Assembly (NCBI GenBank): GCA_003612585.1
Contig: RAZH01000001.1
Span: 372,001-436,000 of the forward strand
Reading direction: 5' to 3'
DNA: 64,000 bases
Source of the DNA: a bacterium 1XD42-54
GTDB taxonomy: Bacteria; Bacillota; Clostridia; Lachnospirales; Lachnospiraceae
Shown: positions 2,550-15,991 of the stretch, in pieces
How positions within the stretch are numbered: position 1 is the stretch's first letter
How the letters are laid out: each line of letters starts with the position of its first letter
The notes under the pieces: model-generated
Seen by the model: only the letters and a program-made list of their open reading frames with translations
Told to the model about the DNA's origin: nothing
The model's database searches: none
Translations under genes and position numbers: made by a program

Positions 2550-4049
2550 TTACCGTTCCTCTCTTTTATCCCTTTTCCCGCCGAATGCAAACCATCCGAC
2601 CAAAGCAAGGAACGCCACAGCCACAAGCATCCAACCCACAAGCAGCATCGGATTATTTTCTGCTTTCGCGCGCGGCGCAAACATATCCCAGTAACCTTTC
2701 AGATATACAATGACCACAAGCACCGGAATCCCATATGTAATATAGCCGCGGACAAACGCCGGGAACTTCATACCGGTTCCTGCATTCGCTTCTTTGATGA
2801 AATGCTTCCAGCCCCAACCGTTTTTCTGTGTACAGAACATCAGATACACAAGGGAACCAAGCGGAAGCAGGTTGCTGGAAACGAGGAAATCCTCGAGATC
2901 CATGATTCCTGTCCCGGTGCCAAGCGGCTGAATTCCAGAAAGGACATTAAAGCCGAGCACTGCCGGCATTGACAGAAGAATAATCAACACAATATTGATC
3001 GCAACTGCCTTTTTCCTCGAAACGCCAAACAAATCCATTGCAAACGAAATGATATTCTCAAATACGGCAATGACCGTTGACAGAGCTGCAAACGACAGGA
3101 ACAGGAAGAACAGACTTCCCCAGATCCTTCCGCCTGCCATCTGATTAAAAATCTGCGGCAGTGTAATAAAAATGAGGGACGGCCCTGCATCCGGCTCCAC
3201 GCCAAACGAGAAACAAGCCGGAATAATAATCAGCCCTGCCATCAAGGCTACAAATGTATCAAGAATCCCGATGCTCATCGCCTCTCCTGTCAGAGAACGG
3301 TTTTTGTCCAGATAACTGCCGAAAATCGCCATTGCTCCGATTCCAAGGCTTAAGGTAAAGAATGCCTGGGACATCGCTCCAAACACAATATCACCGATTC
3401 CTATCTCTTTCATTTTCTGGAAATCCGGAACAAGATAGAACTTCACGCCTTCCATTGCTCCCGGCAGGCGCACAGAATGTACAGCCAGCACGATAATGAG
3501 CCCCAGAAGTGCAATCATCATCACCTTCGTAATCCGCTCCACACCCTTTTGCACACCAAGCGCACAGATACCGAACGAAATCACCACGGCAAGCACCATC
3601 CACAGCGTCAGCGTTCCCGGAGACGAAAGCATCTCATTGAATTTTGCTCCCGATGCCTGCGCATCCAAAATAGAACCGGAAAAATCTCCCCTGACGCAGC
3701 GGAAACAATAATACATCATCCATCCTGCCACCATGGTATAAAACATCATCAGCAGATAATTTCCTGCCATGCCGAACCAGCCGTAATGATGCCACTTTGT
3801 CCCCTTCGGCTCAAGTACGCGAAAAGAAGTAGCACAGCTCTTCTGGCTGCCTCTTCCGACCGAAAACTCACAGACCATAATCGGCCATCCCATCAGTACA
3901 AGAAAAGCCAGATAGATCAGAATGAACGCCGCTCCTCCGTACTTTCCTGTCATGTACGGAAACTTCCATACATTTCCAATTCCTACCGCGCAGCCGGCCG
4001 AAACTAAAATAAAACCAAGGCGGCTGCCAAATTTTTCTCTTTCCTTCAT
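2550..4049 (-). CDS. sodium-dependent transporter, SNF/NSS family
   Basis: LeuT/SNF-type Na+-coupled symporter, 499 residues. The family signature is near the N-terminus: SAGCAVGIGNVWKFPYMTG, which forms the unwound TM1 with Na+ and substrate contacts. About eleven or twelve hydrophobic segments follow. Known substrates of bacterial members are amino acids such as leucine, tryptophan and tyrosine; this one's substrate cannot be told. The gene is a single unit with its own promoter (4214-4242), a leader of about 160 bases with competing hairpins, and its own terminator, so dedicated regulation is likely. The start ATG has AGGAGAG upstream. Confidence 0.93.
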   Translation of the reverse strand: MKEREKFGSRLGFILVSAGCAVGIGNVWKFPYMTGKYGGAAFILIYLAFLVLMGWPIMVCEFSVGRGSQKSCATSFRVLEPKGTKWHHYGWFGMAGNYLLMMFYTMVAGWMMYYCFRCVRGDFSGSILDAQASGAKFNEMLSSPGTLTLWMVLAVVISFGICALGVQKGVERITKVMMIALLGLIIVLAVHSVRLPGAMEGVKFYLVPDFQKMKEIGIGDIVFGAMSQAFFTLSLGIGAMAIFGSYLDKNRSLTGEAMSIGILDTFVALMAGLIIIPACFSFGVEPDAGPSLIFITLPQIFNQMAGGRIWGSLFFLFLSFAALSTVIAVFENIISFAMDLFGVSRKKAVAINIVLIILLSMPAVLGFNVLSGIQPLGTGTGIMDLEDFLVSSNLLPLGSLVYLMFCTQKNGWGWKHFIKEANAGTGMKFPAFVRGYITYGIPVLVVIVYLKGYWDMFAPRAKAENNPMLLVGWMLVAVAFLALVGWFAFGGKRDKREER

Positions 4050-4123
4050 TTTTTCTCTCCTTGCAATTTACTGACCTTCCAGATAATTGTAAAACACCGA
4101 AGTAAACTGGTACCAAAAGCCAA

Positions 4124-4172
4124 ATAAACCCAGAGAAAAGTCACCCTCTATTTTGTGGCTTTTCCCCGGGTT
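4124..4172 (-). promoter_or_regulatory. leader with two mutually exclusive hairpins upstream of the SNF transporter
   Basis: On the minus strand AACCCGGGGAAAAG (4159-4172) pairs with CTTTTCTCTGGGTT (4127-4140), with two G-U pairs. The AAAAGCCA inside this region can instead pair with TGGCTTTT (about 4115-4122). Both pairings use the same AAAAG bases, so they exclude each other. The first stem is followed by only a weak T run. An attenuator or protein-binding switch is possible; no known riboswitch class was recognised. Confidence 0.5.
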
Positions 4173-4200
4173 CTGACTTTACAACAAATTCACAATTAAC

Positions 4201-4219
4201 TATACTGTTATTCAGTATA
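4201..4219 (-). promoter_or_regulatory. palindrome overlapping the -10 of the SNF transporter promoter
   Basis: TATACTG-TTATT-CAGTATA is a perfect 7-bp inverted repeat covering the -10 box and the likely transcription start. That position suits a repressor operator. The cognate regulator is not evident nearby. Confidence 0.45.
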
Positions 4220-4242
4220 ACTGATCGTCAAAGTTCTGTCAA
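4214..4242 (-). promoter_or_regulatory. sigma-70-type promoter of the SNF transporter
   Basis: On the minus strand TTGACA (4237-4242), a 17-base spacer and TATACT (4214-4219). Both boxes are close to consensus. Confidence 0.8.
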
Positions 4243-4276
4243 TTTCAGAAACCAGATTTTATCACATAAGAATTCT

Positions 4277-4894
4277 TTAGTCCTCCCACGGACGAATGCG
4301 ATAGCGCGCGCCTACCTCTTCACAGATTTTCCGGCACTCTTCCTCTTCCTGCTTCGTCAGCGTCGTATCAACAGTAGTCATCACAACCTCGGACACATAT
4401 TTTTTACATTCTTTTGCAAAAGAAAGCATCGCTTCAAATGACTGTTCTCCAAACTTCGGGCGCACCAGCTCATAATATTTTCCAGCATCCGGTGTGTTCA
4501 AACTGATCGACACAGTATCAATCAATCCCTCAAACAACGGCGCAATATTTTTCCCATTCACCAGATTCCCCAGACCATTCGTATTGATTCGTATCTTCTT
4601 TCCATATCGTTCTTTCACAAACCGTGCCGTTCCCAGCAATACCTCCAGCGCCTCTGTCGGCTCTCCGAATCCGCAAAATACCACTTCCCCATATTTTCCC
4701 ATATCAAATTTGTCAAATTCCGCCTTTACTTCCTCTACCGAAGGCGTATGCTCCAGCCAGAGCACCCCCGACTCTTCCATGGACTCTCTTGTCTGCCGCA
4801 AACAGAACGTACAGGCACACGGACACTTGTTTGTCAGATTTACATACAGATTCCCATGTACCTCATATAAAATCGTCATCGCTTTCTCTTTCAT
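4277..4894 (-). CDS. radical SAM protein, TatD-associated type (TIGR04038-like)
   Basis: Short radical SAM enzyme of 205 residues. The cluster motif is near the N-terminus in LTNKCPCACTFCLRQ: it satisfies CX3CX2C and has one extra cysteine inside. A GFGEPTE motif follows (GGE-like SAM contact), then IRINTNGL and SISLNTPDAGKYYE. The family often sits beside TatD-type nucleases, but no tatD gene is in this window. The function of the family is unknown to me. The start was set at Met 9 of the longest frame because AAGGAG lies upstream of it; the outer ATG (4918) has no ribosome binding site. Confidence 0.8.
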   Translation of the reverse strand: MKEKAMTILYEVHGNLYVNLTNKCPCACTFCLRQTRESMEESGVLWLEHTPSVEEVKAEFDKFDMGKYGEVVFCGFGEPTEALEVLLGTARFVKERYGKKIRINTNGLGNLVNGKNIAPLFEGLIDTVSISLNTPDAGKYYELVRPKFGEQSFEAMLSFAKECKKYVSEVVMTTVDTTLTKQEEEECRKICEEVGARYRIRPWED

Positions 4895-4965
4895 AACATC
4901 CATTCTCCTTTTTCTCATCCAATTTAATTATCTCAGAACGCGAACGGTCTTTCATAGACAGCTCC

Positions 4966-5802
4966 CTATCGCAGCGTATGGAGCACCTCTTCAAAGCATA
5001 CTCCGTCCGTCACCGGAATCCCCAGTTCTATTGATTTCTCAATACAACGTTTGATAAAACGTGACGCTTTTTTTACGGACTCCTGAAACTCCACGCCATT
5101 TACCGCGTCTGCCGCAACAATCGCCGCAAAAATATCGCCTGTTCCGGACCGCTGTGTTCCCACCTTATGCGTTCTTCGGATTTTTCCTTCTCTGCCTCTT
5201 TCATAACAGAAATTTGCAATAAAATCCCCCTGCACAATTCCCGTAATTACAACCTTCTCCGGCCCCATACTGCTCAGCTTTTCTGCCAGAGAAGCGATTT
5301 CCTTCATCCTCCATCGTTCCTCATGGTACGGCGTATCCGTCAAAATACATGCCTCCGTCAGATTTGGCGTGAGAATATCTGCATAAGAAACAAGCCGCTT
5401 CATCTCCTCGCACATTTCCGGCGTATACGTCGCATACGTCTTTCCATAATCCCCCATCACCGGATCTACAACAATCACATTGTCCTTTGTGCCAAATTCC
5501 TCAAGAAAACGAATTACAATCTGAATCTGTTCCCTGGAACCAAGAAATCCGGTGCTAATACCCGAAAACTGAAGCTCCAGCTTTTTCCATTCATCAATAT
5601 AAGCCTGCATTCGGTCTGTATAATCTTCAAAATAGAAGCTCGGAAAACCGGTGTGGTTTGAAAAAATCGAAGTCGGCACCGGACAGCACTGAATTTTCAT
5701 TGAAGAAATAACCGGCAGGGCAACTGCAATCGAGCAGCGCCCAAAGCCGGAAAAATCATTGATCACAGCTATCTTTTTCTGGTGATTATGATCCTGTTTC
5801 AT
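4966..5802 (-). CDS. pyridoxamine/pyridoxal kinase
   Basis: Ribokinase-fold kinase of 278 residues that phosphorylates B6 vitamers to feed pyridoxal 5'-phosphate. Features: INDFSGFGRCS at the N-terminus; the VDPVMGDYGK segment; the anion-hole/catalytic motif GTQRSGTGDIFAAI near residue 220, with the catalytic Asp in GTGD. It overlaps the upstream ECF S-component gene by four bases, which shows translational coupling and suggests that the pair takes up and traps a B6 vitamer. The E. coli counterparts PdxK and PdxY have similar length; I do not assign either symbol. Confidence 0.88.
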   Translation of the reverse strand: MKQDHNHQKKIAVINDFSGFGRCSIAVALPVISSMKIQCCPVPTSIFSNHTGFPSFYFEDYTDRMQAYIDEWKKLELQFSGISTGFLGSREQIQIVIRFLEEFGTKDNVIVVDPVMGDYGKTYATYTPEMCEEMKRLVSYADILTPNLTEACILTDTPYHEERWRMKEIASLAEKLSSMGPEKVVITGIVQGDFIANFCYERGREGKIRRTHKVGTQRSGTGDIFAAIVAADAVNGVEFQESVKKASRFIKRCIEKSIELGIPVTDGVCFEEVLHTLR

Positions 5803-6332
5803 CCTATCCTCCCCAAAAGTCTGATTACATGTGCCTTTTCCAGCACAAAACCAAGTGCATAAAAGGCCGCCAGTCCGATTACGCCTTCCAGCGTCAACCC
5901 CGGAACCTGCAAAAGCCCCGTATAAAAGCTTCCATTCAAAACAGCTCCCGCTGCCGTGTATCCAAATACCATCACAGCAACACCCGCCACGCCTGCAAGA
6001 AGCGTTCGCGGCGAAGCCATATGCAGCTTCTTTTCACTTCCCCATGCAAGAAGGCCAATCACCAGGCCCATCACACTTTTAATCAACAGAGTAGGCAGTA
6101 CCCACTGGGTATAGCCAGTCAGTAAATCTGCCATCGCTGAACCAATGCCGCCCGCCAGAAGACCTGTTCCCGGACCAAACATTGCCGCAGTCAGAAGAAT
6201 ACACGTATTACCAAGATGCATGTACCCAAGAGGGATCGGAATCTGAATCACCATTGTACTGATGCACACAAGCGCAATGGAAAGCGCGTTAATTGTGACA
6301 TATTTTGCTGCATGTTCTTTCATCTTATTCAT
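5799..6332 (-). CDS. ECF transporter S component, probably for vitamin B6
   Basis: Integral membrane substrate-binding subunit of an energy-coupling factor transporter, about 177 residues with five or six hydrophobic segments. Typical S-component features are the first helix followed by IQIPIPLGYMHLGNT and the MADLLTGY segment. The shared ATPase and T subunits are not in the window. Coupling to the kinase gene argues for a pyridoxine/pyridoxamine-type substrate, by inference only. The longest frame starts at 6371, but AAGGGG is correctly placed only for the ATG at 6332. Confidence 0.82.
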   Translation of the reverse strand: MNKMKEHAAKYVTINALSIALVCISTMVIQIPIPLGYMHLGNTCILLTAAMFGPGTGLLAGGIGSAMADLLTGYTQWVLPTLLIKSVMGLVIGLLAWGSEKKLHMASPRTLLAGVAGVAVMVFGYTAAGAVLNGSFYTGLLQVPGLTLEGVIGLAAFYALGFVLEKAHVIRLLGRIG

Positions 6333-6416
6333 TTTCATCGCCCCTTCGCCGCCGGTTCTCCCCACCTCCATTCAGATATCGCGTCAGTGGAAAATCCTGC
6401 ATTTTTTATTTCTACC

Positions 6417-6482
6417 ATCATATCGAAGGATTGGCACTTTTAAAATAACCAGTTTTTGTTTTTTTAATAAGTCCAGTTTTTT
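6417..6482 (-). promoter_or_regulatory. repeat-containing promoter region of the vitamin B6 pair (candidate PdxR/MocR site)
   Basis: On the minus strand there is a TATGAT -10 (6417-6422) without a good -35 box. Upstream lie two direct copies of AAAAACTGG (start to start 24 bases), each followed by an AT-rich stretch, then AAAAGTGCC. A weak -35 with upstream direct repeats is usual for MocR-type activators such as PdxR, whose described sites contain AAAGTGG-like cores. No mocR gene is in the window. Confidence 0.45.
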
Positions 6483-6502
6483 AATACGAAATTCCAGGAC
6501 AT

Positions 6503-6560
6503 AAAAAAGCGGTCGCGCCATTTCTGTTTTCAAAAGTTCTGAAATGCGCGACAGCCTTTT
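6503..6560 (-). terminator. terminator of the Big_2 protein gene
   Basis: On the minus strand GTCGCGCATTTC pairs with GAAATGGCGCGAC (one bulge) and is followed by GCTTTTTTATG. It ends transcription just after the stop codon at 6572. Confidence 0.85.
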
Positions 6561-6571
6561 ATTTTTTATCG

Positions 6572-7621
6572 TCAGATTGAAAATGATGTAAACCCAAGAT
6601 CTTTCATACTAATGCCGACCTTCGTCCGCAGTAGATACCCCTCCCAGCCGACAAATGCCATCTGTAAAGACGCATTGGACAGCTGATTCACTTGTGCGGA
6701 AGAAATACCTCCACTCGTATCTTTAATCGTAAACGCTACATTAGATTTTCCATTATATTTCGCCGGTACAATTTGAGCTTCTGACATGAATGCTCCCAGC
6801 CCATCACCGATTACGACAAGGCAATTCGGTCTTACATACTGTAAATCTGCGGCATTTACATACATGGAGATCGCAAAGTCACCGTAATAATATTCTGTAC
6901 TCATAATAAAATGATACTGCTTCTTTTTCGAATCATATTCGATTCCCCATGTAATATCCATACCTTCTACATAATCAGAAGCGCTGATAAATTTATTTCC
7001 ATTTGCATTCAGACTGCCATACTTTGTGATATACTGGTTCAGCTTCTGATACCCGCTTGCAAACGCCGGCTTCTTCACTACCGTAACTTTACAGGTATAT
7101 TTCTTTCCGCCCACCTTTGCCGTGATCGTAGCTGTTCCCGCTTTTTTCGCAGTTACTTTTCCCTTAGCATTTACGGAAGCAACACTGCTTTTGCTTGATG
7201 ACCACTTTACACTTTTCTTTGTCCCCGTCATTTTCAGCGTATAAGTGTCTTTCACCGTAAGTTTCAGCGTCTTTTTTGAGATTGCCGGTGTCGTGACTGT
7301 AATCTTACATCTATATTTCTTTCCGTCTACTTTTGCGGTAATCGTAGCTGTTCCGGCCTTTTTTGCCGTCACCTTACCTTTTGAATTTACGGTCGCAATC
7401 TTACTGCTTGAAGTACTCCACTGCACTTTTTTCTTTGTCCCGGATATCTTCAGCTGAAGTGTGCTGCCCTTTTCCAGACTTGCCTTTGTCTTACTGATCT
7501 TGACCTTTGATGCAGCCTGCACCGTTGACACCAGATTCAGCTGCGGAATATCAATCGAAACCGTGGCTGCCAGGCAAAAAACAAGAAAAAGGCATGCTGC
7601 AAATTTTTTTGTGCTTTTCAT
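6572..7621 (-). CDS. secreted protein with two bacterial Ig-like (Big_2) domains
   Basis: Exported protein of 349 residues. The signal peptide is MKSTKKFAACLFLVFCLAAT with a hydrophobic core, probably cleaved after VQAAS or nearby. Two Big_2 repeats follow (about residues 38-110 and 112-185), each ending in the same block, VTAKKAGTATITAK, a nearly exact internal duplication. The C-terminal 160 residues have no recognised domain. A surface or matrix role is likely, but no enzyme motif is seen. The start was chosen at 7621, where a GGAG lies three bases upstream and the signal peptide begins directly. It is a single-gene unit with its own promoter and terminator. Confidence 0.85.
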   Translation of the reverse strand: MKSTKKFAACLFLVFCLAATVSIDIPQLNLVSTVQAASKVKISKTKASLEKGSTLQLKISGTKKKVQWSTSSSKIATVNSKGKVTAKKAGTATITAKVDGKKYRCKITVTTPAISKKTLKLTVKDTYTLKMTGTKKSVKWSSSKSSVASVNAKGKVTAKKAGTATITAKVGGKKYTCKVTVVKKPAFASGYQKLNQYITKYGSLNANGNKFISASDYVEGMDITWGIEYDSKKKQYHFIMSTEYYYGDFAISMYVNAADLQYVRPNCLVVIGDGLGAFMSEAQIVPAKYNGKSNVAFTIKDTSGGISSAQVNQLSNASLQMAFVGWEGYLLRTKVGISMKDLGFTSFSI

Positions 7622-7690
7622 AAACTCCATTCCTCCCTTAAAAAAATAGTTCCGCCAGGGCACTTCGTTCAGATAACCCTGTATGTTTTA

Positions 7691-7718
7691 TTGTACCATA
7701 TCTTTCCTGAAAGTAAAT
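7691..7718 (-). promoter_or_regulatory. promoter of the Big_2 protein gene
   Basis: Minus strand TTTACT (7713-7718), 16-base spacer, TACAAT (7691-7696). Confidence 0.65.
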
Positions 7719-7785
7719 GCGTTTTTCTCCTTTTTGCACAATTAATGCAGCAGACCCAGTTCTTCTGATTTCCTTCTATTTGTAT

Positions 7786-8616
7786 TTATCCCTTGACACC
7801 GGACAGTGCAATTCCTTCAATAAATTGCTTTTGGGCCAGCAAAAATGCCAGCATTACGGGCAACACAGAAAGCACTGCTCCTGCCATCAGCAAATTATAC
7901 TGCACACCGTACAGGCTCTGGAAAGAGGCCAGACCAATCGGCAGCGTTTTGAGTTTCGCTGACTGAAGTGTAATGAGCGGCCACAGGAAGTCATTCCAGG
8001 AGCCCATAAAGCTGAATACAAACAGAGTGGACACAATTGCCTTGGTCAGCGGCATATATACACGGATAAAAATCTGCGGCTGGCTTGCACCGTCTATGAT
8101 TGCTGCTTCCTTTAACTGTCCCGGCAGCGTCATATAGAACTGCCGCATTAAAAACACCCCAAACGCGTTTCCAAATATAAACGGAAGAATCACAGATACA
8201 TGTTTATCCACCCAACCCAGTTCCCGCATAATGACATAGCGCGGGATCAGCAAAATCATACCCGGAACCATCATCGTAGACAGATAAATTTTAAACAGCA
8301 GTTCCCTGCCTCTGAAATCCAGTTTCGCGAACGCATATCCGGCCAGCGAGCAAAAGAAAACCTGCCCTACCGTCGTCACGAGCGCAATATAGATGGAATT
8401 TCCAAACATCCGGAAAATATTAATTTTTTTAATTACATCTGTATAATTCTTGAAAATCGGCTTTTCCGGAAAAAAAGTCGGCGGCCATGTCAGAATTTCA
8501 TTCGGGGCTTTCAGAGACGTAATCACGGTCCAGAAAAACGGCATAATAAAAATAAATGCCAAAATACACATGCCCACAAATTCCGCAATCTTAACCGCAT
8601 TTAATTTTTTCTTCAT
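7786..8616 (-). CDS. carbohydrate ABC transporter permease (MalG/CUT1 type)
   Basis: Second permease subunit of the sugar importer, 276 residues with six membrane segments. The EAA loop that docks the ATPase is seen as EAAIIDGASQPQIFIRVYMP, near residue 175. The C-terminus SGVKG is usual for MalG-like proteins. The start at 8616 has GGGGAGG upstream (ten-base spacing) and leaves 19 bases to the upstream permease; the outer ATG at 8664 has none. No ATPase gene is present in this operon, so a shared MsmK-type ATPase encoded elsewhere is expected. Confidence 0.93.
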   Translation of the reverse strand: MKKKLNAVKIAEFVGMCILAFIFIMPFFWTVITSLKAPNEILTWPPTFFPEKPIFKNYTDVIKKINIFRMFGNSIYIALVTTVGQVFFCSLAGYAFAKLDFRGRELLFKIYLSTMMVPGMILLIPRYVIMRELGWVDKHVSVILPFIFGNAFGVFLMRQFYMTLPGQLKEAAIIDGASQPQIFIRVYMPLTKAIVSTLFVFSFMGSWNDFLWPLITLQSAKLKTLPIGLASFQSLYGVQYNLLMAGAVLSVLPVMLAFLLAQKQFIEGIALSGVKG

Positions 8617-8635
8617 CACCTTCACCTCCCCGGGT

Positions 8636-9535
8636 TTAATCATAGCTCTGATTCCTGCCGCCAAATTTCATCTGCAGCATTGTGAATACAAAAATAATGA
8701 TAAATACGATCCAGGACAACGCCGACGCATAGCCCATATCGAAGAATTTAAATGCATTCTGATAGATCCAGTAGTACACAACTCTCGTCGCGTCCCCGGG
8801 GCCTCCCTGCGTTGTCATATATACCACGTCAAATACCTGGAACGAGTTGATAATTGACATTACGGTGACAAAAAAGATAGACGGCGCGCTGAGCGGCAGC
8901 GCAACATTTTTAAATTTCTGAAAACCGTTCGCTCCATCCAGAGCCGCCGCCTCATACAGTGATTTTGGCACGTCCTTGAATGCCGCGATTAAAATGACAA
9001 CATTGAATCCGAGGCTTTTCCAGATACCGATCAGGATCACAGACATCATCGCGTACCGTTCGTCTCCGAGCCAGCTGATCCCGTCAATCCCGAAAAAGCT
9101 CAGGAAGTAATTTACAACGCCGTAGTCACCGTTCAGCAGCCATTTCCAGATCATGGATACCGATATCATTGACAAGGTAACAGGAATAAAAATAATGCTT
9201 CGAAAAACAGTCGTTCCCCTCAGATCCCCTGACAATACGTACGCTACGAGAATCGCAGCCACAACGCCAAGCGGAATGCTTATAAAAGAATAAACCGCAG
9301 TATTTTTCAGGGCGATAAAAAACTGCTCGTCGCGCATCATTTTTTCTGTAAAATTCGCAAGCCCCACGAATTCCGGAGGATTAATCATATCCCACTTCAT
9401 AAACGACATATACAACGAAAAAAGTATCGGAATCAGGACGAATATGGCTGTCGCTATGAGATTGGGGGCTATGAATACATAGCCCCAGAAATTTTCCCCT
9501 TTTTTGATTGGATTTACTTTTTGCCTTGTTTTCAT
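8636..9535 (-). CDS. sugar ABC transporter permease (MalF/CUT1 type)
   Basis: First permease subunit, 299 residues. Six hydrophobic segments and an EAA motif, YEAAALDGANGFQKFKNVALP, near residue 210. The start at 9535 follows AAAAAAGGAG by about nine bases. It lies between the binding-protein gene (39-base gap) and the second permease, the standard CUT1 order of binding protein, MalF-like, MalG-like. Confidence 0.93.
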   Translation of the reverse strand: MKTRQKVNPIKKGENFWGYVFIAPNLIATAIFVLIPILFSLYMSFMKWDMINPPEFVGLANFTEKMMRDEQFFIALKNTAVYSFISIPLGVVAAILVAYVLSGDLRGTTVFRSIIFIPVTLSMISVSMIWKWLLNGDYGVVNYFLSFFGIDGISWLGDERYAMMSVILIGIWKSLGFNVVILIAAFKDVPKSLYEAAALDGANGFQKFKNVALPLSAPSIFFVTVMSIINSFQVFDVVYMTTQGGPGDATRVVYYWIYQNAFKFFDMGYASALSWIVFIIIFVFTMLQMKFGGRNQSYD

Positions 9536-9574
9536 GGTAATTTCCACTCCTTTTTTAACAGGGGGATGCAAGCA

Positions 9575-10882
9575 CTATCTTCCAACCTCTTCCAGATAAG
9601 CGTTTGCTTCCTCAGCAGCATTTTCCAAAGCTTCAAGCGCTGTCGTTTTTCCTCTGGCTGCCTCTGTCATATTTCTCGCAAAAATATCATCCATCAGCTT
9701 CATCCACTCCGGATGGAACGGATGATCCTTCGTGTTATTAAACTGTTTCAGAATCACGTCAAGCTGCTCCTGTGTCTCGCCTTCCAGCATCCACACCCCG
9801 GATTCTGTCACACTCTTCATAACCGGCATTCCCATACCTGTCGCAGAGTTAATTTCCTGTCCCGTTTTTCCGCAGTAGAATTTGATAAATTCCCATGCAG
9901 CCTCTTTGTTATTGCTGTCTTTTGCCATACCAAGCGCTACAAAGTTGAGCGGCGCCACCTCACTCTTTTCAATCGGGAATGTTGTAAATCCATAATTTCC
10001 GTCAAAGTCTTTCAGGAAATACGTCATAAATCTGCCGCCGATTACCATGGAAGCCAGACCTGACTTAAATGCATCGATCTCTCCGCCGCCCATACTTGTC
10101 ATATCGTCTGGATTTGTCGCACAATGCTCCACGTTTGCAAGATCAAAGTAGAACTGCAGCGCTTCTGCCGTGTTCGGATCAACAACCATTCTCTTTCCTT
10201 CTTCATCAAGAATCTTTCCGCCGTTCTTGTAAGCAATGTTAAACCATGCCGGCCATCCGTTTTCCGGAGCAATACCGTATCTGGTCACTTTTCCATTATC
10301 ATCCGTCTGCGTCATGGCTATACAGGTTTCCTTAAATTTCTCAAAATCCCATGAGCTGTCCGGATACGCCACTCCCGCTTCGTCAAACATATCTTTGTTG
10401 TAATAAATCATGTACGGCGTACAGTCTTTTGCAAACGCCCACAGATGTCCGTCATGATAACCCGCCGGACTTAATACACCGTCCCAGTAATCGGACAGAT
10501 CAAGGCTGTCCTGCTCCGCATACGGAAGAAGGTCTTCCACAACGCCCTTGTCCGCATAAATCGGAACCATGACCTCTCCCATGTAAAAGACATCCGGAGC
10601 CGTCCCACCGCTGATCCTTGTCAAAATCGTCGTATTAAAATCTGCCGCGCCTGAAACATGGTCGAGGTTTACTTTAATATTCGGGTACTCTTTATTAAAC
10701 TCTTCTGTGATCGCTTCCTGTACTGCAACCTCCTCTGGAATTCCCCAGAAAGAGAACGTGATTTCGCCGCTCATATTTTTCTTATCTTCTGCGCTTTCAC
10801 CCGCTATTACGGTTACAGTTCCTATTGTAGTCATAAGCATTGCCATTGAACAAATCCCTGCTGTTAATTTTTTTCTCATCAT
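9575..10882 (-). CDS. extracellular solute-binding protein, family 1 (CUT1)
   Basis: Sugar-binding protein of 435 residues for the permeases downstream. A signal peptide (MMRKKLTAGICSMAMLMTTI and on) is followed by GEITFSFWGIPEEV, then NTTILTRISGGTAPDVFYMGE and the aromatic-rich AFAKDCTPYMIYYNKDMFDEAG, all usual for oligosaccharide-binding members. As with the protein at 1287-2270, no proper lipobox is visible (the only cysteine is within AGICSM). The start ATG has AAAGGAG seven bases upstream. Regulation is clear: a strong promoter at 11061-11089 and a LacI-type operator at 11034-11047. The shared operator suggests an oligosaccharide that the GH172 and DUF6259-like enzymes cleave. Confidence 0.93.
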   Translation of the reverse strand: MMRKKLTAGICSMAMLMTTIGTVTVIAGESAEDKKNMSGEITFSFWGIPEEVAVQEAITEEFNKEYPNIKVNLDHVSGAADFNTTILTRISGGTAPDVFYMGEVMVPIYADKGVVEDLLPYAEQDSLDLSDYWDGVLSPAGYHDGHLWAFAKDCTPYMIYYNKDMFDEAGVAYPDSSWDFEKFKETCIAMTQTDDNGKVTRYGIAPENGWPAWFNIAYKNGGKILDEEGKRMVVDPNTAEALQFYFDLANVEHCATNPDDMTSMGGGEIDAFKSGLASMVIGGRFMTYFLKDFDGNYGFTTFPIEKSEVAPLNFVALGMAKDSNNKEAAWEFIKFYCGKTGQEINSATGMGMPVMKSVTESGVWMLEGETQEQLDVILKQFNNTKDHPFHPEWMKLMDDIFARNMTEAARGKTTALEALENAAEEANAYLEEVGR

Positions 10883-11033
10883 ACGTTTACTCCTTTCAAA
10901 ATAGCATCGGTCTCATGTTTTTTTGAATAAGATATGTGAAATGATATTCCTTGTATTTTACGCTTTTTTTCATTTTCAGATATCTGCAAACAAATATTTT
11001 TTTTAAAAAAGGGAATATTTCCCGGCGAAAATA

Positions 11034-11047
11034 TGGTTTCGATGTCA
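11034..11047 (-). promoter_or_regulatory. LacI-type operator of the sugar importer operon
   Basis: TGGTTTCGATGTCA fits the LacI-family pattern of an imperfect palindrome around a central CG. It lies just downstream of the -10 box, about +7 to +20, where a bound repressor blocks initiation. Its 20-base surrounding differs at one base from the site at 12607-12620. Confidence 0.85.
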
Positions 11048-11060
11048 TATATTTGCCAGA

Positions 11061-11089
11061 AGTATACCATGGCTTTGTCATGTAGTCAA
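11061..11089 (-). promoter_or_regulatory. promoter of the CUT1 importer operon
   Basis: Minus strand TTGACT (11084-11089), 17-base spacer, TATACT (11061-11066). Confidence 0.8.
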
Positions 11090-11210
11090 GTTATTTGTTA
11101 TTTTTTCCATCTATGCAAGCTTTTTATTACTTATAATTATACAAAATATCCAATTCTTAATATTTTTCTCAAGGCTGCCTACTGTTATAACAAAATATCT
11201 CTGTACCCTC

Positions 11211-11350
11211 GTGCAAGGAACAAAAGTGTGCTTCGCACACCTTGCGAGTCAATAAATTTCAGAGCACAGCTTTTGTTCCGCGCGCAAAGCTGCACATCCT
11301 GCCGGAGGCTTTTATCGTATGGGAGACGAAGTTTCCTATACGATAAACCA
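11211..11350. repeat. REP-like element with nested inverted repeats
   Basis: GGAACAAAAG (about 11217-11226) pairs with CTTTTGTTCC (about 11270-11279), with a small GTGTGCTTCGCACAC hairpin inside. A second hairpin (TTTATCGTAT... against ...ATACGATAAA, about 11311-11347) follows. The segment ATCCTGCCGGAGGCTTTT recurs in altered form at 59720-59740. It is probably a dispersed non-coding repeat. Confidence 0.5.
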
Positions 11351-11376
11351 AAAAGCGGCGGAGCTCCCGCTCCGCC
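11350..11376 (-). terminator. terminator of lacI-family regulator gene
   Basis: GGCGGAGC (11357-11364) and GCTCCGCC (11369-11376) form a perfect stem with a four-base loop, followed by GCTTTTT on the minus strand. It starts directly after the stop codon. Confidence 0.9.
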
Positions 11377-11379
11377 ACG

Positions 11380-12399
11380 TTAATGTGTATTTTTAAAACT
11401 TATGACTGAATCACGTTCTACAATTCTCGGCTCCAGTACTGTGATCTTTTTATAATTCCGTCCGTCCTTAATCCGCTCCATGATCATAGTAGCCGCATTC
11501 TGTCCGATTTGCTCCTGCATCATATCCACGGAAGTCAGTTTCGGATACGCACATGTACAGTAATCCGTATTATCCAGCGTAATAATGGACACATCCTCAG
11601 GCACACGCAAACCATGCTCACGCAATGCATCCATACAGCCAATCCCCATCAAATCATTACACGCTACAATGGCTGAAGGCGCCTCTGATTTCCGCAGAAA
11701 TTCCTGCATTTTCTGCTTGCCACCCTCTTTTGTGTAATCCGCCTCAATAACCATCCCCGGTTCAAACGGTATCTTCGCATGGTCCAAGGCCTTGCGGTAC
11801 CCAAGCAGCCTTTCCTTACCTGTCTGTTCCTGCGTATTTCCGACTAGAAATGCAATTCTGCGGTGCCCTTTTCTCATACAGTATGTGGTTGCTATGTAGA
11901 TCGCTTTCGTATGGTCTACATAAACGCAGTCAAAGTTTTCCTCATACGCATAACTTTCATATAGATTAGTCAAAATAACCGGCATTTCTGATTCTCGAAT
12001 TGCATCCATGATTTTCTCATTAAAATCAAAAGAAACAATAATCATCCCGTCAGTAATCCGTTCTCTCAAGCTTGCAATCGCCTGCAATTCTTTCTCAGGT
12101 TTGCGGTTCGTATAAGACAAAATCGTGTAATATCCATACCGTTCCAGTACCTGATTAATTCCGTCAATCATTTTAAAATAATACGGATTGCAGATATCCG
12201 GAATACAAATCATAATCTTGTTTGTTATCTTGCTTTTCAAAGTCTTCGCCGCGGCCACTGGTGAATAATGCAGTTCCTTCGCCGCGGCCAGAACAATCTC
12301 CCGCGATTTCCGGCTGCAATAGCCGTTCCCACTTAAGGCCCGCGCCACGGTTGACGGCGACAGCCCTGTTTTTTCTGCAATCTGATATATATTACTCAT
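11380..12399 (-). CDS. LacI-family transcriptional regulator
   Basis: Regulator of 339 residues. The N-terminal helix-turn-helix is MSNIYQIAEKTGLSPSTVAR, followed by a hinge-helix region (SPVAAAKTLKSK). The rest is a periplasmic-binding-protein-like effector domain (MICIPDICNPYYFKMIDGIN; ACNDLMGIGCMDALREHG; DVSIITLDNTDYC). It sits between the importer operon and the divergent enzyme operon. The two LacI-type operators in the window lie on exactly those two promoters, so it is the obvious candidate repressor, relieved by the imported sugar. Its own promoter (12435-12464) lacks such a site. Confidence 0.93.
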   Translation of the reverse strand: MSNIYQIAEKTGLSPSTVARALSGNGYCSRKSREIVLAAAKELHYSPVAAAKTLKSKITNKIMICIPDICNPYYFKMIDGINQVLERYGYYTILSYTNRKPEKELQAIASLRERITDGMIIVSFDFNEKIMDAIRESEMPVILTNLYESYAYEENFDCVYVDHTKAIYIATTYCMRKGHRRIAFLVGNTQEQTGKERLLGYRKALDHAKIPFEPGMVIEADYTKEGGKQKMQEFLRKSEAPSAIVACNDLMGIGCMDALREHGLRVPEDVSIITLDNTDYCTCAYPKLTSVDMMQEQIGQNAATMIMERIKDGRNYKKITVLEPRIVERDSVISFKNTH

Positions 12400-12434
12400 A
12401 CTTTTTTGCCACCACTCTCATATTTAATGTCACA

Positions 12435-12464
12435 ATACTACCACATTTATTTTTGTAACGTCAA
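12435..12464 (-). promoter_or_regulatory. promoter of the lacI-family gene
   Basis: Minus strand TTGACG (12459-12464), 18-base spacer, TAGTAT (12435-12440). Confidence 0.65.
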
Positions 12465-12572
12465 TCCAGTTTATGAAATATATTATTTTCCCCATAATTC
12501 TGCACAGGAATTCCACATATTTTCTGCTTATATGCACAAATTATACAATGGATATTTAGTGTTTTTCCATAA

Positions 12573-12601
12573 TTGACACCCTCTCAGGCCAATGATATGA
12601 T
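12573..12601 (+). promoter_or_regulatory. promoter of the DUF6259-like/GH172 operon
   Basis: TTGACA (12573-12578), 17-base spacer, TATGAT (12596-12601). Confidence 0.85.
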
Positions 12602-12606
12602 AATTA

Positions 12607-12620
12607 TGGTATCGATGTCA
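12607..12620 (+). promoter_or_regulatory. LacI-type operator of the glycosidase operon
   Basis: TGGTATCGATGTCA, pattern TGNNATCGATNNCA, covers the predicted transcription start about six bases after the -10. ATGGTWTCGATGTCATATAT is shared with the importer operator. Confidence 0.87.
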
Positions 12621-12682
12621 TATATATCATAATTAAAATCCAATACATTGTGCTGCCAGATTTGCACAGAATGGAGGAATGG

Positions 12683-14902
12683 ATGCTGCAACTGCAAAAT
12701 GAAACTATTTTAATTTCTTTTTCTGAAACAAACGGGGCGCTTCTGCAACTGAAAGATCTCCGTCGAAACATGGATTATATCTGCACAAAGGATGCTGTAC
12801 CTTTTGAGCTGGATTACGGAACCGGATTTGTTCATTCGTTTCACAAATTTTCTTATACAGCTTCTTATGGATCAGCCAGCCAGTCTCTTACGTTTTCGTG
12901 GGAACTGTACGATGGCAGTACGCTCCGGGCATACGTCAGCCTGACGAACAAAACGCTGTCCTTTACCTCGGCCTTAACGGGCGAAACATCTGGGCAGACA
13001 CCAGATCTGATTAAGTATCCCCTGCTACAGGGCATCCAAGTACTCAGATCAAAATCACCCGACTATCTCTTCCATTCTTATGCAACTGGTGCACTTGTGC
13101 AAAAACCATATGAGGTCTTTACAGATAACCAGAACGGTTTTTCTAAAATGCCTTATCCGGAATGTTATTCCGGCTGTTCCATGCAGTTTTTATCCTATTA
13201 CTGCGCAGAGAAAGGTGGTATTTATCTAGCCGCGCTGGACGGAGAGTGCAACGTAAAATGGCTCAATTTTTACAAAGAAAACGAAACCTTTACATTTTCC
13301 CATATATACGGCTATACAAATCAGGCTTCGTACCCGGTCATTCTTGAATTTGTCTCAGGAAAAAATGGATGGTACGAAGCTGCTGACAAATACCGTGAAT
13401 GGGCAATCCGCCAAGAGTGGTGCCGCAAAGGAAGATTGGCTGACCTGGAGGAATCACAGAAACCGGTCTGGCTACTGGAAAAAACAGGTGTAACCACCTT
13501 CGGCATAAATGCCATGCACGATCGTTCCCTGTGGCTCAACACTTATAAAAACTGGCTGAAAACCCCTGTCTTCCACGTAACCGGCCCTGACTGGCCAAAG
13601 GAAACACAGGATTACCACAACCATCTCTGCGGCGGTTATGAGGATTGGTTCCCCACAAGATTTCATCCGAAAAATCTCAAAGCATTCCGAGACAACGGCG
13701 ACTTTTTTGCTCCGTTTGAATTTGACTTTTTTGCGAATCTGGAAGGAGCTGATTCTGAAAACCTCAAAAAATCACAGATGGTTAATCCGCAGCAAAAATA
13801 TAGCCTCGATTCCTATCCGTTCACAATCTTGTGCCCAACGCTTCCGTATACGCACGACCTGCACCGGGAACGTGACCTGCGCGTACAGCAGGAATCGGGA
13901 TGCGATGCGCTGTATTACGATATTTCAGCCAACAACCTGTTACACCTTTGTGTCAATCCAGAACATCAGGAGTATCACACACATGGTGGTAACCGTGAAG
14001 TGACGCTTGGTTTTCGCAGTATATTCCAGGAAACTAAAGATGCAATCAGCATACAGGCAGGCAAATACGTGCCAGTAGGTACTGAATTGATGAATGAGGT
14101 CTTTCTCGCTGAACTTGATTTTTATCAGGCCCGTGCCTGGTCACAGCCCTGCGGCTGCCTTGAAACGCTCTATTTTCGCGACTGGATCAAATCCGGCTCC
14201 CTGAAAATCGTTCCGGCGTTTACCTATGTTTATCATGAATATGGTGGAATCCGTATGGATGGTTGGGGCAAATTGGTAGAAGAAACCGGCGACCTTTTTT
14301 ATCACACTGTTGCTAAAACGTATCTGTGGGGCGCCTTATATGAACTTAATTACGAGTGGTCCCCCATGGAAGCAATACAGGGTTGCGTCAACTCACCCAA
14401 AGAGCATTACTTTTCCTTTACGCCAAGAAGCTGTGTATTTTCGGCCAAAAAAGCAGAGTACCTTGCCCAGTATGCGGCACTGCGCACCGGACCCGCGAAT
14501 AAATTTCTGGCTTACGGGAAAATGCAAAAACCGCTTCCGTTCACTGAAAACAAAACCAGATTTTCTTATTACCATTACAATGCGCCGCAGGACGGACCGG
14601 AATATGAAGACAGCGGACAGATTGAGGAAGATACCATTCTGCACAGCATATGGGAATACACGGACTCACACACAAGCAGTGTCGGTCTGTTCTTTGCCAA
14701 TACTTCTGAGCAAGATTTCTCTCTTTTGCTGGAATTGCCGCAACAATACCGGCATTATAAAAACCGGATTTTGTTTTTTGATTTCACACCGGAACACGAA
14801 TGCGCACACACTGCACTGGCGGCAGATACGGACACATATACGTTAAATTTAAAAGGCCGCCGTGTTTACTTTCTGCAATTATCACAATCTATGGAGGATT
14901 AA
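12683..14902 (+). CDS. putative glycoside hydrolase-like protein (DUF6259-like)
   Basis: Protein of 739 residues without signal peptide, hence cytoplasmic. The first 270 residues look like a beta-sandwich (ISFSETNGALLQLKDL). A probable TIM barrel follows. It contains the block YEAADKYREWAIRQEW usual for DUF6259 proteins, and acidic residues on likely barrel strands (CDALYYDISAN and VGTELMNE) that would suit catalysis. A C-terminal beta domain ends it. The family assignment is by eye and moderate. It is probably co-transcribed with the GH172 gene three bases downstream, so it likely attacks the same imported oligosaccharide. The start at 12683 has GGAGG five bases upstream; the longer frame from 12650 lacks a site. 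Confidence 0.7.
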   Translation: MLQLQNETILISFSETNGALLQLKDLRRNMDYICTKDAVPFELDYGTGFVHSFHKFSYTASYGSASQSLTFSWELYDGSTLRAYVSLTNKTLSFTSALTGETSGQTPDLIKYPLLQGIQVLRSKSPDYLFHSYATGALVQKPYEVFTDNQNGFSKMPYPECYSGCSMQFLSYYCAEKGGIYLAALDGECNVKWLNFYKENETFTFSHIYGYTNQASYPVILEFVSGKNGWYEAADKYREWAIRQEWCRKGRLADLEESQKPVWLLEKTGVTTFGINAMHDRSLWLNTYKNWLKTPVFHVTGPDWPKETQDYHNHLCGGYEDWFPTRFHPKNLKAFRDNGDFFAPFEFDFFANLEGADSENLKKSQMVNPQQKYSLDSYPFTILCPTLPYTHDLHRERDLRVQQESGCDALYYDISANNLLHLCVNPEHQEYHTHGGNREVTLGFRSIFQETKDAISIQAGKYVPVGTELMNEVFLAELDFYQARAWSQPCGCLETLYFRDWIKSGSLKIVPAFTYVYHEYGGIRMDGWGKLVEETGDLFYHTVAKTYLWGALYELNYEWSPMEAIQGCVNSPKEHYFSFTPRSCVFSAKKAEYLAQYAALRTGPANKFLAYGKMQKPLPFTENKTRFSYYHYNAPQDGPEYEDSGQIEEDTILHSIWEYTDSHTSSVGLFFANTSEQDFSLLLELPQQYRHYKNRILFFDFTPEHECAHTALAADTDTYTLNLKGRRVYFLQLSQSMED

Positions 14903-14905
14903 AAT

Positions 14906-15991
14906 ATGAATCATGGTTTAAGCAACGGTATGTCTGATCTGATCTATTTATCCAACGCAAAAACCCGTTCGATCTGTCCCGAAAACGAAACGGGAGAACC
15001 CGGAAAAGGGGGTATGTGCGAACTGGAAAATGGCAATGCCAGACTGGCTGCGCGGGACCTCGGCAAGGGATGGAAAGTAAATCCTTACATCCACATCCCG
15101 GCAGGAACTACTTACGAGATTGCCAACATCGAGGGGCCCGGCGTTATTCAGCATATCTGGATGACGCCAACCGGACGCTGGCGCAATGTTATTTTACGTT
15201 TTTACTGGGATGGCCAGGAGAATCCGTCCATCGAATGTCCAGTCGGTGATTTTTTCGCATCCGGCTGGAATGAGTATGCACAGCTCTCTTCACTTGCTGT
15301 CTGTGTGAACCCAGGCAGTGCATTTAACTGTTACTGGCAGATGCCGTTTCGCAAAAACTGCCGTATTACACTCGAAAACATTGGTGAAGATCAGGTAACT
15401 TATTATTATCAAATTGATTATACGTTGACAGAAGTACCGGAAAACTGCGCCTATTTTCACGCACAGTTCCGCAGAGTCAACCCGCTTCCATACAAGGAGG
15501 TATACACAATTGTGGACGGCATCGAGGGCAACGGCCATTATGTCGGTACATACTTAGCCTGGGGACTGAACAACTGCGGCTGGTGGGGAGAAGGTGAAAT
15601 CAAATTCTTTATTGATGACGACGATGAATTTCCGACCATCTGCGGAACAGGCACCGAAGACTATTTCTGCGGTTCCTATAATTTTGAAGATCCACATACC
15701 CATGACCGTTACGTACCGTTTACCACACCGTACTCCGGCCTTCACCAGGTTATCACACCGGATAAGCTGTATTCCAGCCAATTCCGCTTCGGTATGTATC
15801 GCTTTCATATTATGGACCCAATCCGTTTTCAGAAAAAACTGAAAGTTACAATCCAGGCGCTCGGATGGCGAGAAGGCGGTCGTTATCTGCCGTTGCAGGA
15901 CGATATCGCGTCCGTGGCTTACTGGTATCAGACACTTCCACACCAGAAATTCCCGAAGCTTTCGGAGAAAGATTATCTTGAAGTAATCTAA
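14906..15991 (+). CDS. GH172-family protein (DUF2961), predicted fructofuranosidase/arabinofuranosidase
   Basis: 361-residue DUF2961 protein. Recognised landmarks are the N-terminal GLSNGMSDLIYLSNAKTRSI, the IANIEGPGVIQHIWMT strand, GDFFASGWNEY and the C-terminal GEGEIKFFID...GTGTEDYFCGSYNF. DUF2961 is now family GH172, whose described members act on difructose anhydride (alpha-D-fructofuranosidase) or on D-arabinofuranosides. The glutamates in GEGE and GTGTED have about the spacing of the two catalytic glutamates of the founding enzyme. There is no signal peptide, so the substrate is probably imported by the CUT1 transporter. GGAGG lies eight bases before the start. Confidence 0.85.
   Translation: MNHGLSNGMSDLIYLSNAKTRSICPENETGEPGKGGMCELENGNARLAARDLGKGWKVNPYIHIPAGTTYEIANIEGPGVIQHIWMTPTGRWRNVILRFYWDGQENPSIECPVGDFFASGWNEYAQLSSLAVCVNPGSAFNCYWQMPFRKNCRITLENIGEDQVTYYYQIDYTLTEVPENCAYFHAQFRRVNPLPYKEVYTIVDGIEGNGHYVGTYLAWGLNNCGWWGEGEIKFFIDDDDEFPTICGTGTEDYFCGSYNFEDPHTHDRYVPFTTPYSGLHQVITPDKLYSSQFRFGMYRFHIMDPIRFQKKLKVTIQALGWREGGRYLPLQDDIASVAYWYQTLPHQKFPKLSEKDYLEVI

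Follow-up and report, generated by a model that had tools for sequence, protein, structure and literature searches.

A putative LacI-controlled locus for D-arabinofuranose oligosaccharides pairs a DUF6259 protein with a GH172 enzyme in a Lachnospiraceae bacterium

Within a 64,000-nucleotide stretch of the genome of bacterium 1XD42-54, a member of the Lachnospiraceae (contig RAZH01000001.1, positions 372,001 to 436,000 of the forward strand; hereafter the window), two adjacent genes encode a protein of the DUF6259 family and a member of glycoside hydrolase family 172 (GH172; DUF2961), near genes for a LacI-family regulator and a sugar importer of the CUT1 type. On balance we consider it probable that this locus acts as a LacI-controlled utilisation regulon for short oligosaccharides containing D-arabinofuranose (D-Araf), a sugar of mycobacterial cell walls. 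This reading is built on the catalytic and specificity residues of the GH172 protein, an operator-like site common to the importer and enzyme genes, and the neighbourhood of a related DUF6259 gene in a distant bacterium, which adjoins a GH183 gene.

Results

The DUF6259-GH172 gene pair

The DUF6259 gene (12683..14902, plus strand) encodes 739 amino acids and matches PF19773 at 71.7 bits, and the GH172 gene (14906..15991, plus strand) encodes 361 amino acids and matches PF11175 at 328.1 bits against a curated cut-off of 27. We placed the start of the former at the ATG at 12683, which is preceded by GGAGGA at 12673; the open reading frame (ORF) listing opens this frame upstream, at a GTG at 12650. 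Three bases separate the two genes, and the ribosome-binding site of the second (GGAGG at 14893) lies within the 3' end of the first. A first-pass annotation, made from the letters of the window, had described such a closely spaced pair, with both enzymes free of signal peptides and a CUT1 importer alongside. All of this held up: the pair was recovered by the ORF list and Pfam matches, hydrophobic leaders were absent from both N-termini as judged by eye, and a solute-binding protein (SBP; PF01547 and PF13416) and two permeases (each PF00528) were recognised at the locus.

The GH172 protein resembles an exo-alpha-D-arabinofuranosidase

Among relatives of known structure in the PDB, the window GH172 scored highest with ExoMA1 (8ic8, 420 bits; 189 of 345 aligned residues identical, or 55%), followed by alphaFFase1 (7v1v, 145 bits), 4kq7 (138 bits) and DG02479 (8ah3, 134 bits); the last of these is probably the D-arabinofuranosidase DgGH172c, to judge by its number. 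ExoMA1 is an exo-alpha-D-arabinofuranosidase whose N253 blocks fructofuranose, a position held by Gly299 in alphaFFase1 (PMC10509167). Residues E229, E251 and N259 of the window protein correspond to E223, E245 and N253 of ExoMA1, and both catalytic Glu residues of alphaFFase1 (acid/base E270 and nucleophile E291; PMC8605356) are kept as E229 and E251. At a second position, the K147A variant of alphaFFase1 retained 4.8% of its activity on inulobiose and 94.1% on p-nitrophenyl-alpha-D-Araf (pNP-alpha-D-Araf) (PMC8605356); this position is Asn both in the window protein (Asn135) and in ExoMA1. One departure from ExoMA1 is its W252, which is Tyr in the window protein. Across 11 GH172 loci elsewhere with at least 60% identity, residue 259 was Asn in ten and Gly in one (L065, whose gene is also the one in L080).

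Because of its closeness to ExoMA1, its Asn259 and the Asn at the K147 position, the most likely activity predicted for the window GH172 is that of an alpha-D-arabinofuranosidase. The first-pass annotation had proposed a furanoside as substrate, which these data render likely, and had allowed either difructose anhydride or D-arabinofuranosides: the second of these was retained, and N259, as in ExoMA1, makes the first less likely.

DUF6259 as a candidate glycosidase family

With 71.7 bits against a PF19773 cut-off of 28.7, compared with 83 bits for a relative (P0002) and 355.5 for a canonical member (in L084), the window DUF6259 protein is, by profile score, a true yet divergent member of its family. 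D413 and E468 were invariant in all 22 aligned DUF6259 proteins, which were picked from 40 extracted, and in all 23 of another set, most of it shared with the first; W304, C384, C423, H428 and R601 were likewise invariant. We regard D413 as a candidate nucleophile and E468 as a candidate acid/base.

When the 23-protein profile was compared with the PDB, the first match was the GH129 alpha-N-acetylgalactosaminidase NagBb (5wzn; two variants, E 6.4e-5 and 1.5e-4). This match spans about 140 residues, aligns D413 with the Asp of a YLD motif, along with the Cys and His that follow it, and stops before the acid/base. The YLD Asp is presumably the nucleophile D435 of NagBb, for which no confirming paper was found. 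The likeness to NagBb (PMC8106489) is one of profiles (E 6.4e-5), reached by the broader profiles only: the window sequence alone yielded a single chance-level match in the PDB, to a glucan phosphorylase (E 0.59), and a three-member subfamily profile of the window protein and two close relatives yielded none. The further matches of the broader profile were at chance level (E 0.09-0.28) and comprised a BolA-like protein, an alpha-L-fucosidase and four alpha-galactosidase/galactosaminidase sequences, which we presume to be GH36. In a set of 12 DUF6259 proteins, weak Pfam matches were seen to GH66 (4/12), GHL15 (three), GHL6 (two) and GHL10 (one); the window protein itself matched none of these four, nor the GH116 domains PF12215 and PF04685, PF19773 being its sole match at E <=1. 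Since D413 and E468 are invariant, and given the GH129 match and the weak matches to TIM-barrel glycosidases, the DUF6259 protein is likely to be a retaining TIM-barrel glycosidase. The first-pass annotation had noted that the family has no established activity; consistent with this, no published function for DUF6259 or PF19773 was found in open-licence PMC articles, supplements excluded.

A distant DUF6259 gene was also observed on a contig from a viral collection (L064, 1802-3943, plus strand; L086 is the same contig), less than 1 kb from genes that appear phage-tail-like by eye, and this gene may perhaps lie at a prophage edge or be prophage cargo.

A related DUF6259 gene adjoins GH183

Searches with the window DUF6259 protein matched two of 397 genomes of the same family, namely its own and one with a partial match of 30% identity, and only its own among 398 genomes of the phylum. 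A scan of genome contigs found one relative, L063, in the metagenome-assembled genome (MAG) Anaerolineae bacterium HOT.MB2.62 (G790), with 38% identity over query residues 1-689. Anaerolineae is a class of the Chloroflexota, and of 249 genomes of this class eight were matched, two of them at full length: G790 itself and G819 (locus L078). Their DUF6259 proteins are 87% identical to each other, and each is 36-38% identical to that of the window. In both, the gene order is SBP-permease-permease-DUF6259; then, after 20 bases in G790 and 32 bases in G819, comes a reading frame whose leader is of the lipoprotein type (leader and start judged by eye). In G790 the frame is cut by the contig end and known from its leader alone, which is similar to that in G819. 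In G819 it is complete and encodes a DUF4185/GH183 protein (328 bits) whose best PDB match is EndoMA1 (8hhv, 229 bits); the three residues proven essential in EndoMA1 (D33, D51 and E243; PMC10509167) are matched by D, D and E in the G819 protein. The GH183 gene that follows DUF6259 in L078 thus links the window-type subfamily to D-arabinan independently of the window, and the subfamily appears to be tied to this polymer by GH183 in an Anaerolineae-class genome and by GH172 in the window.

The importer and enzyme units share an operator-like site

On the minus strand, the window carries genes for the LacI-family regulator (11380..12399; 339 amino acids; PF00356, PF13377 and PF00532 above cut-off), the CUT1 SBP (9575..10882; 435 amino acids; both SBP domains above cut-off), permease 1 (8636..9571; 119 of 296 residues identical to an L063 permease) and permease 2 (7786..8664; 106 of 264 residues identical to an L063 permease). 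An ATPase gene was not seen among ORFs of at least 150 amino acids at 7786-15991. Because the importer genes oppose the enzyme genes in strand, the locus consists of divergent units rather than one operon.

A repeat search revealed a 24-base repeat, 92% identical, at 11029-11052 and 12602-12625, built around the 18-bp near-palindrome TATGGTWTCGATGTCATA, which has CG at its centre. As located by pattern scan and repeat search, one copy (TATGGTTTCGATGTCATA, 11032..11049) lies upstream of the SBP gene and the other (TATGGTATCGATGTCATA, 12605..12622) upstream of the DUF6259 gene, and one of the two deviates by a single base from a perfect palindrome. Each copy sits 3' of a predicted promoter, that of the SBP-permease unit being TTGACT-17 nt-TATACT (11061..11089, minus strand; 10/12 consensus) and that of the DUF6259-GH172 unit TTGACA-17 nt-TATGAT (12573..12601, plus strand; 11/12 consensus), both with a TG before the -10 element. 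These promoters come from a pattern scan alone, which gave 12 sites across the region where shuffles gave 6.5. LacI-type operators commonly lie just after a promoter. With up to 3 mismatches, TATGGTWTCGATGTCATA has two matches in the 64 kb against 0.14 expected, and two matches occurred in none of 100 shuffles, although this statistic measures rarity rather than discovery because the pattern was derived from these very sites. A more degenerate version of the palindrome, scanned with 2 mismatches allowed, recovered both sites again where 0.25 would be expected. Two other stretches of the same genome were free of the palindrome at up to 3 mismatches. The near-identical palindromes suggest that both units belong to one regulon, with a putative operator that may be bound by the LacI protein of the locus. 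The link implied by the term transporter-linked operon in the first-pass annotation is consistent with this common site, and the single operon is replaced by divergent units on opposite strands.

Co-occurrence of DUF6259 and GH172

The genome survey proposed with the first-pass annotation did not reveal a repeated co-location of the two families. Across the 398 phylum genomes, DUF6259 was matched in 33 (above cut-off in 26), DUF2961 in 26 and both in 13, and only in the window's own genome were they adjacent. In the other twelve genomes they lay about 66 kb apart (G695), more than 1 Mb apart (G703) or on separate contigs (ten genomes). A repeated DUF6259-GH172 pairing was therefore rejected, with the limit that GH172 lies on contigs of 5.9, 3.2 and 5.5 kb in G464, G552 and G712, where adjacency could be missed. 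We also examined 19 GH172 neighbourhoods, one per genome, from the 25 other matching genomes (up to 10 kb on each side, less at contig ends), by BLAST with four DUF6259 queries and one GH183 query at E <=1e-6. DUF6259 was found in none of the 19 and GH183 in two (L101 and L102). Pfam searches of selected proteins placed a fucose-isomerase-type gene in at least three of these neighbourhoods (L092, L102 and L104).

Other arrangements were also observed around GH172 genes. A repeated GH172-GH4 pairing was seen in a single family: four of its genomes (L091, L094, L095 and L096), with GH172 proteins 61-63% identical to that of the window, have a GH4-type gene directly beside GH172, as assigned by Pfam in L091 and by the similar start of the neighbouring 440-amino-acid protein in the other three. 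The GH172 most similar to that of the window (69% identity, L093) has directly upstream a gene (2574-4886, minus strand) for a protein of 770 amino acids that begins, as judged by eye, with a signal-like leader and has no Pfam match at E <=1e-5. In L101 the gene row is GH183-GH172-LacI-SBP-permease-permease, and its GH183 gene (6982-9321, plus strand) encodes 779 amino acids with a C-terminal GH183 domain preceded by a weak GH43_C2 match.

Candidate pathway genes elsewhere in the genome

The window's own genome holds one DUF6259 and two GH172 genes. GH116 was not found in it, the same search being positive in three of 14 control genomes. On the same contig, about 68 kb upstream, fucose-isomerase-C-type and xylulokinase-type genes occur together; they would make possible a route from D-arabinose through D-ribulose to D-xylulose.

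The second GH172 (L081, G000:C31:66000-80000; row at 3885-9243; 381 amino acids) is accompanied by a CUT1 SBP and two permeases, and the same row holds a D-psicose 3-epimerase (NF051856, 474 bits). It is 60% and 57% identical to the GH172 proteins near GH183 in L101 and L102, respectively.

Discussion

Relation to known systems

The closest parallel to the window is the D-arabinan locus of Microbacterium arabinogalactanolyticum, which encodes ExoMA1 (GH172), ExoMA2 (GH116), EndoMA1/2 (GH183) and an ATP-binding cassette (ABC) importer, and for which a model has been put forward where GH172 and GH116 enzymes, both without signal sequences, cleave arabino-oligosaccharides after their import (PMC10509167). 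The window likewise combines an ABC sugar importer, whose SBP is of the SBP_bac_8 type, with a leaderless GH172 that is 55% identical and a second leaderless, putative glycosidase; candidates for the isomerase and kinase are in the genome, although here outside the locus. It differs in that DUF6259, by analogy, would take the place of GH116, and in that neither GH183 nor GH116 was found in the window genome. PUL42 of Dysgonomonas gadei (GH172 a-c and GH183) is similar in its use of GH172 exo-D-arabinofuranosidases, and in this organism a fucose isomerase was most abundant on D-arabinan (PMC10115798). Unlike the window, it is a Bacteroidota polysaccharide utilisation locus (PUL) for whole D-arabinan, and the available portion of that article mentions neither a CUT1 importer nor DUF6259.

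A predicted route for D-arabino-oligosaccharides

In the scheme that we favour, in which the locus would serve the use of short D-Araf-containing oligosaccharides, the CUT1 importer would take up the oligosaccharide, and the cytoplasmic GH172 would remove alpha-D-Araf residues by a retaining mechanism with E251 as nucleophile and E229 as acid/base. The DUF6259 protein is probably likewise cytoplasmic and a retaining enzyme of TIM-barrel fold, in which D413 would act as nucleophile and E468 as acid/base; it would cut a residue or linkage beyond the reach of GH172. Which linkage this may be is guesswork, our best guess being a non-reducing-end beta-D-Araf, as cleaved by the GH116 enzyme ExoMA2 in Microbacterium. 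Freed D-arabinose would be processed by an isomerase of the fucose-isomerase type and by an FGGY kinase, both encoded elsewhere in the genome. If the genome encodes no endo-D-arabinanase, the bacterium would scavenge oligosaccharides produced by others. More tentatively, and with considerable doubt, we propose that the DUF6259 subfamily of the window and the two Anaerolineae-class genomes might constitute a new GH family whose members, though not homologous to GH116 ExoMA2, would be its counterparts as exo-beta-D-arabinofuranosidases; it would let this bacterium strip short D-arabino-oligosaccharides that other microbes free from mycobacterial-type cell walls. Enzymes that degrade D-arabinan are a recent addition (GH172, GH183 and a GH116 subfamily, in papers of 2021-2023) and are wanted for the analysis of mycobacterial cell walls. 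Found beside GH172 in one lineage and, as a 36-38% identical relative, beside GH183 in a distant one, DUF6259 offers a concrete candidate for another family active on D-arabinan. The prediction is testable with substrate kinds already synthesised for the D-arabinan enzyme papers.

Several observations weigh against this scheme. CUT1-type permease genes were found no more than about 6 kb from DUF6259 in eight of nine wider neighbourhoods, window included (those of L085 being distant, at 69-79 bits, and none being found in L116), so the importer says little about the substrate; nearby CUT1 genes are a general trait of the DUF6259 family and no evidence for D-arabinan. GH183 was not found in the window's own genome, and no control genome was positive either, although the family model used does recognise the GH183 protein P0001; thus the importer has no known endo-D-arabinanase to supply it. 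The GH183 neighbour of DUF6259 was read in one genome only, and this link counts once because G790 and G819 carry close relatives. Moreover, both of these genomes also encode GH116: that of G790 is closest to ExoMA2 (8ic6, 568 bits) and adjoins a GH172 with Gly at position 259, and that of G819 is 94% identical to it. DUF6259 is therefore no simple replacement of GH116 in these organisms and may instead remove another residue or decoration. Structure prediction for DUF6259 failed, the AlphaFold2 model (with the window, L063 and L064 proteins as alignment) having a mean predicted local distance difference test score (pLDDT) of 33, and the model was not used. Within GH172, overall similarity does not sort by substrate, since DG02479 scores no higher than alphaFFase1, and alphaFFase1 itself also acts on pNP-alpha-D-Araf (PMC8605356). 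Finally, a degenerate form of the palindrome reached at least two matches in three of 100 shuffles, and the catabolic genes at C11:316 kb have no copy of it. The idea that CUT1 similarity marks the importer as one for D-arabinan was also considered and rejected, as permeases near other DUF6259 genes are equally similar to those of the window (up to 42%).

Alternative explanations

The strongest competitor, which we consider possible but on the unlikely side, leaves GH172 acting on D-Araf and has DUF6259 remove a different decorating sugar, such as an alpha-linked hexose, a hexosamine or a mannose cap, so as to expose the D-Araf chain. The best profile neighbour of DUF6259 is indeed an alpha-N-acetylgalactosaminidase of GH129, with alpha-galactosidase entries following at chance level, lipoarabinomannan (LAM) bears mannose caps (PMC10509167), and the GH116 enzymes of G790 and G819 could already serve beta-D-Araf there. 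Yet distant profile matches of this kind do not have the power to fix the sugar, and nothing observed points directly to a decorated substrate.

In our estimation an alpha-fructofuranoside, for instance difructose dianhydride I or inulobiose, is quite unlikely as the substrate of the pair. GH172 does include alphaFFase1 of Bifidobacterium dentium, which is active on such compounds, difructose dianhydride I among them, and shares both catalytic Glu residues with the window protein (PMC8605356), and gut Blautia use another anhydride, via GH91 (PMC11538131). However, the window GH172 is far closer to ExoMA1 than to alphaFFase1 (145 bits only), it has Asn259 and Asn135 in place of Gly299 and Lys147 (PMC10509167), and the relative of its DUF6259 partner in L078 adjoins GH183. 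Least likely of all would be that DUF6259 and GH172 were joined by chance and act on different substrates delivered by one broad CUT1 system. That the two families are adjacent once in 398 genomes would fit such an accident, as would the CUT1 genes near other DUF6259 subfamilies, in whose stretches, as far as these were read, no GH172 occurs. The 3-base gap with a ribosome-binding site inside the preceding gene, the operator-like site common to importer and enzymes, and the separate D-arabinan link of the subfamily through GH183 in L078 argue against it.

Other features of the window

A recent acquisition of the locus, as judged by base composition, was considered and rejected, the G+C fraction of the genes (0.44-0.48) being close to the window mean of 0.47. 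The genes 3' of GH172, on the opposite strand, are presumably housekeeping genes. On the other side of the locus, 122 bases beyond the 3' end of the last permease gene and in the same orientation, a minus-strand gene (6572-7663) encodes a protein with a leader-like start and two group-2 bacterial Ig-like domains.

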